NCBI GenBank assembly: GCA_020012075.1
Contig: DWUP01000097.1
Coordinates: 1 to 38,865 of the forward strand
DNA from: Candidatus Avibacteroides avistercoris
GTDB lineage: Bacteria > Bacteroidota > Bacteroidia > Bacteroidales > Bacteroidaceae
Length of the DNA: 38,865 bases
Reading direction: 5' to 3'
Shown here: positions 36,706 through 38,865 of the stretch, one piece after another
How positions within the stretch are numbered: position 1 is the first letter of the stretch
Layout of the letters: each line of letters starts with the position of its first letter
Notes under the pieces: model-generated
Database searches by the model: none
Told to the model about the DNA's origin: nothing
The model's input: only the letters and a program-made list of their open reading frames with translations
Position numbers and translations under genes: made by a program

Positions 36706-37983
36706 ATGAAATCAGTAGACGTACTATTAGGTTTGCAATGGGGCGACGAAGGCAAAGGTAAAGTCGTCGACGTCCTCACCCCGCGATATGACGTCGTGGC
36801 ACGCTTCCAAGGAGGCCCCAACGCAGGGCACACATTAGAGTTTGAAGGACAGAAATACGTCCTGCGCTCCATCCCGTCGGGCATATTCCAAGGCGACAAA
36901 ATCAACGTCATCGGCAACGGCGTCGTGCTCGACCCGGCACTCTTCCGTCAGGAGGCAGAGCAACTGGCAGCCAGCGGACACGACGTGACCCGGCGACTCT
37001 ATATCTCAAAGAAAGCACACCTCATCATGCCCACACACCGCGTCCTCGACGCCGCCTACGAAGCCGCCAAGGGCGATGCCCGTGTGGGGACGACAGGCAA
37101 AGGCATCGGTCCGACCTACGCCGACAAGACCAGCCGCAACGGACTCCGCGTGGGAGACATCCTCGGGGACTTCCCCGCAGCCTACGCCAAAGCAAAAGCA
37201 CGCCACGAAGCCATATTGCAATCGCTCGGCTACCAGTATGACATCACCGAGGCCGAGCGCGAATGGCTCGACGCCATCGAATATCTGAAGCAATTCACCC
37301 TCATCGACAGCGAGTTTTTCATCAACCAATTGCTCGACGAGGGCAAGTCAGTCCTCTGCGAGGGCGCACAAGGCACGATGCTCGACGTAGACTTCGGGTC
37401 ATATCCATTCGTCACTTCGTCCAACACCATCAGCGCCGGCGCATGCACAGGCCTCGGGGTCGCGCCGCGACGCATAGGCGAAGTCTATGGCATCTTCAAA
37501 GCCTACTGCACACGGGTCGGCGCGGGACCATTCCCCACCGAGCTGCACGACGCCACCGGCGACCTTATCTGCGACCGCGGACATGAATACGGAGCAGTCA
37601 CAGGGCGCAAACGCCGCTGCGGATGGATAGACCTCGTCGCCCTCAGATATGCAGTCATGCTCAACGGAGTGACCCGCCTCATCATGATGAAGAGCGACAT
37701 CCTCGACGACTTCGACACCATCAAGGCCTGCGTCGCCTACGACATCGACGGCACAGAGACCGACCGCTTCCCCTACGACATCACACACGACATCACACCG
37801 GTCTATGCCGAGATGCCCGGATGGAAGACAGACATGAGCTACATGACAGACGAAGACGAGTTCCCCGAAGAGTTCAACGCCTACATATCATTCATCGAGG
37901 ACTACCTCGGGGTGCCCATCAAAATCATATCACTCGGCCCCGACCGCAGCCAGACCATAGAGCGCTACACCGAGGGCGAATGA
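36706..37983 (+). CDS. purA: Adenylosuccinate synthetase
   Basis: 425 aa; 'VDVLLGLQWGDEGKGKVVDVLTPRYDVVARFQGGPNAGHTLEF', 'GTTGKGIGPTYADKTSRNGLRVGD', 'EGAQGTMLDVDFGSYPFVTSSNT'. Starts 1 bp after the Fur-family stop. Confidence 0.98.
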   Translation: MKSVDVLLGLQWGDEGKGKVVDVLTPRYDVVARFQGGPNAGHTLEFEGQKYVLRSIPSGIFQGDKINVIGNGVVLDPALFRQEAEQLAASGHDVTRRLYISKKAHLIMPTHRVLDAAYEAAKGDARVGTTGKGIGPTYADKTSRNGLRVGDILGDFPAAYAKAKARHEAILQSLGYQYDITEAEREWLDAIEYLKQFTLIDSEFFINQLLDEGKSVLCEGAQGTMLDVDFGSYPFVTSSNTISAGACTGLGVAPRRIGEVYGIFKAYCTRVGAGPFPTELHDATGDLICDRGHEYGAVTGRKRRCGWIDLVALRYAVMLNGVTRLIMMKSDILDDFDTIKACVAYDIDGTETDRFPYDITHDITPVYAEMPGWKTDMSYMTDEDEFPEEFNAYISFIEDYLGVPIKIISLGPDRSQTIERYTEGE

Positions 37984-38165: not shown

Positions 38166-38247
38166 CCTTAGGCTGCAAATATATATTTGCAGCCTAACGT
38201 CTATATATCTCTAACCTAAAAACACATATTTTTAGCCTAAGCTAAGG
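38166..38247. repeat. AT-rich palindrome plus ~21-22-bp CCTAA-ended repeats
   Basis: Perfect 30-bp palindrome TTAGGCTGCAAATAT/ATATTTGCAGCCTAA (38168-38197) followed by CCTAA at 38193, 38215, 38236; second stem CTAAAAA-CACATA-TTTTTAG and TTAGC-CTAA-GCTAA. Confidence 0.75.
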
Positions 38248-38522
38248 CGACGGCATCCCACCCTGCCGCCATCACCATGGCACATCCGCCCTTCAACGAC
38301 CGTGACCGATTTTTAGCTTCATGGCACTCCATGCACACAGTTTTTAATATCACATCACAGGCAATCTGATGCCTACGCGCGGCACATGCTGTCAAAAAGA
38401 CACTTTATCCGGACATTTCCACCAGAAACAAAGCGAAAGCAAACCATATATCACCTATATTGCAACGCACAAATATCATTATGACAAAATGAAAGAATTA
38501 TTTAAAATTTCATGGCATTTTA

Positions 38523-38554
38523 TTTGGTATTCAGCAAACTTCGCCTTACCTTTG
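38523..38554 (+). promoter_or_regulatory. Bacteroidota primary-sigma type promoter
   Basis: TTTG (38523-38526) - 20 bp - TACCTTTG (38547-38554), matching the TTTG/TAnnTTTG consensus. Confidence 0.65.
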
Positions 38555-38560
38555 ACACGT

Positions 38561-38678
38561 AGGTTAATAAAATTTCATTTCCAAAGGCAAGAGAGCTTGT
38601 TTAATGGCAAAAACTTCATTTTGATATTAACGTATGTTGCGGCGTGATTCTTTGTGAAAAGCATCACGCCGTTTTTTT
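38561..38678 (+). ncRNA. Candidate small RNA (~115 nt)
   Basis: Bounded by the promoter at 38523-38554 and the terminator at 38640-38678. The only fully contained reading frame I noticed is a 6-codon ATG GCA AAA ACT TCA TTT TGA (MAKTSF). Confidence 0.5.
38640..38678 (+). terminator. Strong rho-independent terminator with no CDS upstream within ~650 bp
   Basis: CGGCGTGAT-t-CTTT-GTGA-AAAG-c-ATCACGCCG followed by TTTTTTT; GNRA (GUGA) tetraloop. Confidence 0.88.
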
Positions 38679-38765
38679 ATTGCACAAAATGACAGCCACG
38701 GCGGCAGCCGGGCAGCACATCGCCACAGGAAAGCACTATCTTTGCACACACAAGACCGACGCCGA

Positions 38766-38865
38766 CTGGAAGAAATACAGAGCATACACGACACCGAGCT
38801 GGGCGACATAGCCATCAAGACACATTGGAATGCACGCAAAGCCACCGCGAGAATCACCGGCGGGC
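38766..38865 (+). CDS. Partial N-terminus of a possible YgjP/DUF45-like metallopeptidase, truncated by window end
   Basis: Frame read by hand: (CTG)LEEIQSIHDTELGDIAIKTHWNARKATARITGG, resembling 'xDxELGxIxIrxxxxARrxxxRxxxxG'. No in-frame ATG visible, so the start is uncertain. A TATCTTTG -7 element sits at 38737-38744. Confidence 0.4.
   Translation, partial: MEEIQSIHDTELGDIAIKTHWNARKATARITGG

Follow-up and report, generated by a model that had tools for sequence, protein, structure and literature searches.

The 38,865-nt stretch of DNA from Candidatus Avibacteroides avistercoris analysed here (the window) carries, near the contig end and with purA (36706-37983) as the upstream gene, a perfect Bacteroides-type promoter, TTTG-N20-TACCTTTG, and a strong intrinsic terminator (Table 1). 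The first-pass annotation had described a promoter-terminator unit at this place, and both elements are confirmed, enclosing approximately 120 nt; the AT-rich surroundings it had pointed out are equally evident in the sequence. On the downstream side, the contig ends within a gene whose frame at 38766 reads LEEIQSIHDTELGDIAIKTHWNARKATARITGG and resembles the intact ygjP-like copies of the related loci L002 and L003, with the family (PF01863) assigned on the protein of the related locus L004; it is this resemblance to intact copies in relatives that identifies the gene in the window. This frame is preceded by its own -7 element, TATCTTTG, as had been noted before. In L002 and L003, the ygjP-like gene possesses a perfect TTTG-N19-TAnnTTTG promoter with its TTTG in the loop region of the upstream terminator, and in L004 a perfect promoter with N20 spacing directly follows the T-tract. 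The ygjP promoter thus overlaps or abuts the terminator (1648-1678 in L002 and the corresponding position in L003 and L004), so that the end of one unit and the start signals of the next have sequence in common. Between purA and the promoter-terminator unit, at 38168-38197, a perfect 30-bp palindrome, TTAGGCTGCAAATATATATTTGCAGCCTAA, is located, which is a REP-like dispersed palindromic repeat: 12 copies with up to three mismatches are found in its own 2-Mb genome (control, 0), some of which run on into CGTCTAT...TTTTAGCCTAA.

Table 1. Features at the end of the window
Feature	Position	Strand	Description	Basis or conservation
sigma-ABfr-type promoter	38523..38554	+	-33 TTTG 38523-38526, N20, -7 TACCTTTG 38547-38554	sequence and conservation
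Putative sRNA gene body (RNA model R1)	38555..38678	+	~118-124 nt	fold z, covariance model
Closing helix P1, 5' arm	38558..38569	+	CGTAgGTTAATA	fold; pairs in window, L002 and L003, not in L004
Hairpin P2	38586..38601	+	core CAAG-N4-CTTG	paired in 4/4 aligned species, loop variable
Six-codon ORF MAKTSF	38604..38624	+		judged non-functional: L005 without start, conservation past stop
Invariant 19-nt core, putative seed	38613..38631	+	ACTTCATTTTGATATTAAC; overlaps small hairpin P3 and 3' arm of P1	
Closing helix P1, 3' arm	38625..38636	+	TATTAACgTATG	fold
Intrinsic terminator	38639..38678	+	10+4 bp stem (38639-38672; arms 38640-38653/38658-38671), one mismatch, GTGA loop, T7 (38672-38678)	fold, compensatory changes
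-7-like element of ygjP-like gene	38737..38744	+	TATCTTTG; no -33 TTTG in window	orthologous loci have complete promoters
ygjP-like (PF01863) metallopeptidase gene, 5' end	38766..38865	+	start CTG 38766 or TTG 38742, no ATG; cut by contig end	

Searched on both strands of the window, the pattern TTTG-N19..21-TAnnTTTG is matched once, by this promoter, with 0.14 matches expected. Such a match is not significant alone, as 14 of 100 shuffled windows carry one, but conservation of the promoter with its N20 spacing in three relatives (L002, L003 and L004) backs it. RNA polymerase with sigma-ABfr would initiate at approximately 38558-38561, where the transcription start site is expected, and the transcript would end at the T-tract of the terminator. 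The terminator has a predicted energy of -19.9 kcal/mol; an automated terminator scan of the window made no call at this position, probably because of the internal mismatch. A promoter and an intrinsic terminator of its own in intergenic DNA, generally characteristic of a trans-encoded sRNA, are thus present in the window and kept in L002, L003 and L004.

The RNA delimited in this way folds at -37.2 kcal/mol with a z of -4.5 against shuffles (-35.5 kcal/mol and z -3.8 with slightly shifted ends), and L002 and L003 reach z values of -4.1 and -3.6; for L004 and L005, the predicted fold is not more stable than that of shuffled sequences. A covariance model scores L002, L003 and L004 at 94-147 bits, these being the very sequences from which it was built. 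According to the predicted fold, the RNA would form a closing helix, the CAAG-N4-CTTG hairpin and the terminator hairpin and would present a core, ACUUCAUUUUGAUAUUAAC, the first half of which, ACUUCA, is largely free of pairing in the predicted ensemble, with the last part lying within P1. Pair counts show that six pairs of the terminator stem hold pairing via changes on both sides, that P2 and P3 are unbroken in four species yet hardly vary, and that P1 is intact in three species and broken in L004 with no covariation; covariation therefore supports the terminator, not the closing helix.

This core, approximately 55 nt from the RNA 5' end, and its complementarity to start codons are additions to the first-pass annotation. 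The exact 19 nt occur as one copy in each of the five genomes of the genus and in none of 296 sampled genomes of the other genera of the family, with 0 matches for the reversed-pattern control. The genus sample comprises the five available genomes of this gut lineage (Candidatus Avibacteroides or uncultured Bacteroidaceae), all with a matching locus; four of the five loci are also found in records named Candidatus Avibacteroides excrementipullorum or uncultured Bacteroidaceae bacterium. Promoter, CAAG-N4-CTTG hairpin, an invariant CAAA(A/T)ACTTCATTTTGATATTAACGTA and the terminator are common to the aligned window, L002, L003 and L004, and thus close relatives have kept both promoter and hairpin, a check named in the first-pass annotation; in the fifth locus, L005, core and terminator are the recognisable parts and the promoter match is imperfect. 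When up to three mismatches to a 24-nt core pattern were allowed, 247 genomes of the order yielded one outside match, which equals the control level, and no viral contig searched held the exact core. With the core in five of five genomes of the genus and in none of the other genera, and with the order-wide and viral searches adding nothing, the RNA seems, among the genomes sampled, to be confined to this genus.

Matches outside the Bacteroidaceae are flanked by unrelated sequence and were regarded as chance matches. Among 151 genomes of the family, five weak covariance matches outside the genus consisted of the TTTGTGAAA-type terminator hairpin only; they were rejected as homologs because the core is absent. 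Loops of the TTTGTGAAA type are found repeatedly among the terminators of several genera of Bacteroidaceae (L142-L146), and the family may prefer this loop in its terminators. The Rfam scan, likewise suggested at first pass, gave no match at gathering score for any family including 6S RNA, and a relaxed scan returned chance-level matches.

The reverse complement of the core, GTTAATATCAAAATGAAGT, holds an ATG in an A-rich context, and the core RNA is the exact complement of the AUG start-codon context GUUAAUAUCAAAAUGAAGU. In Bacteroidota an A-rich start context is used in place of the Shine-Dalgarno sequence (PMC7366714), and the Bacteroides thetaiotaomicron sRNAs GibS and FopS repress mRNAs by start-codon pairing (PMC7366714, PMC11697453). 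Pairing of the core with translation-initiation regions is thus its most likely mode of action, whereby initiation would be blocked as by GibS and FopS. A scan for the 12-mer ATCAAAATGAAG matched, in the genome G004, an MTA/SAH-nucleosidase-like gene at its start codon, the best match of the core in that genome; the gene belongs to PF01048 and falls below NCBIfam cut-offs. Over the nucleosidase AUG, the core could form 15 contiguous pairs in G004, 14 in G002 and 15 in G000, the genome of the window, in which the nucleosidase ortholog shares 62% protein identity; the sites in G000 and G002 keep pairing via A-to-G changes that leave G-U pairs. Predicted duplex energies range from -16.2 to -18.8 kcal/mol, and the longest pairing run among 1502 sampled start regions of G004 is 14. 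In G003 and G001 the pairing site is absent with the core unchanged. In G001 the core (G001:C137:36140) lies approximately 2.4 kb from the nucleosidase-like gene (G001:C137:38545-39096), where no pairing site is left.

Across the genome, start regions complementary to the core are not in excess, 36 genes being reached by the core versus a mean of 42 by shuffled cores, which often also attain lower minimum energies; this ranking excludes the nucleosidase gene, an uncalled ORF, which was compared separately. Among 422 ortholog pairs of G004 and G003, no convincing common target was found. pdxJ, compared in the four genomes in which its start was resolved, was dropped as a target, with a site in G002 and G004 and none in G000 and G003. 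In the light of the missing enrichment, the nucleosidase-like mRNA, although the best match, is no more than a candidate target. It is a speculative extension, with a small though real chance of holding, that a genus-wide sRNA masks the nucleosidase start codon in three species and so controls the recycling of S-adenosylmethionine by-products, with further targets keeping the seed invariant.

In four of the five species the RNA precedes ygjP despite a changing upstream neighbour (purA in the window, ribE in L002 and L003), and this linkage is the best remaining argument for a role in cis, as a leader or attenuator of a ygjP(-rimP-nusA) operon with a terminator that is conditionally read through. 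The window copy of ygjP, with its -7 element only and no ATG, and the A interrupting the T-tracts of L002 and L003 would equally suit such a role. An attenuator or riboswitch, however, always stands before the co-transcribed gene it regulates, and ygjP has a perfect promoter of its own in three relatives, while in L005 (the same locus as L014) core and terminator are situated between a divergent gene, which we take from its translated sequence to be MBOAT-like, and a convergent gene, away from ygjP and followed by nothing co-directional. As, furthermore, no alternative anti-terminator pairing was identified, regulation in cis is considered unlikely. The short frame MAKTSF, found upstream of the terminator as the first-pass annotation had indicated, would in turn give the transcript a leader peptide, M(A/T)(K/N)TSF, or make it an RNA with a dual function. 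Although the frame can be read in the window, L002 and L003 from ATG and in L004 from TTG, L005 has no in-frame start codon and an upstream in-frame stop with the bases still identical, and base conservation extends past the stop through GATATTAAC without a synonymous change in ACT TCA TTT, which makes translation highly improbable. Separate ygjP promoters, the L005 context and the non-conservation of the ORF, next to the conserved promoter, core and terminator, therefore make an independent trans-acting sRNA the preferred reading over attenuator and leader peptide, in agreement with the preference expressed at first pass.

That the RNA is real, with a core kept for a protein such as an RNA chaperone or regulator, or for another RNA, instead of serving as an mRNA seed, would accommodate an invariant core for which no genus-wide common mRNA target was found and half of which is sequestered in P1. 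Exact complementarity to the AUG context and sites of 14-15 bp at the nucleosidase gene in three species, on the other hand, fit base-pairing, so that a core of this kind is rather improbable. The account considered rather likely is that the locus constitutes an independently transcribed trans-acting sRNA gene of approximately 120 nt, the product of which pairs with translation-initiation regions. Promoter, terminator, conservation of the core and genomic independence are apparent at the level of the compared sequences; from these we infer transcription, the base-pairing mechanism and the target, and the sRNA probably regulates mRNAs by base-pairing near start codons. By these features it would be a conserved sRNA gene of ordinary type whose core is unusually rigid, and, matching no Rfam family, previously uncatalogued. 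Outside Bacteroides thetaiotaomicron, to our knowledge, few sRNAs of Bacteroidota are characterised. With one copy per genome and a core that is invariant in every base and complementary to a start-codon context, the present sRNA offers a concrete and testable model of riboregulation in bacteria in which mRNAs lack a Shine-Dalgarno sequence.

Compared by description, GibS of B. thetaiotaomicron (PMC7366714) shares the intergenic location, the intrinsic terminator and a conserved seed for target start codons, with the pairing being proposed in the present case; it differs in its non-canonical promoter (PMC11697453) and 5'-terminal unstructured seed, whereas the sRNA described here has a canonical promoter and an internal core located before the terminator. 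The FopS family (PMC11697453) resembles it in the canonical sigma-ABfr promoter and in start-codon pairing, the mode proposed here. FopS, however, comprises 14 paralogs in B. thetaiotaomicron of approximately 65-70 nt with the seed at the 5' end (PMC11697453), in contrast to one copy of approximately 120 nt with the core approximately 55 nt from the 5' end, which places this sRNA outside the FopS family. MasB (BTnc201, PMC10994844), again compared by description, differs in a target site approximately 40 nt inside the coding sequence and is alike as an approximately 100-nt, narrowly conserved intergenic Bacteroides sRNA.
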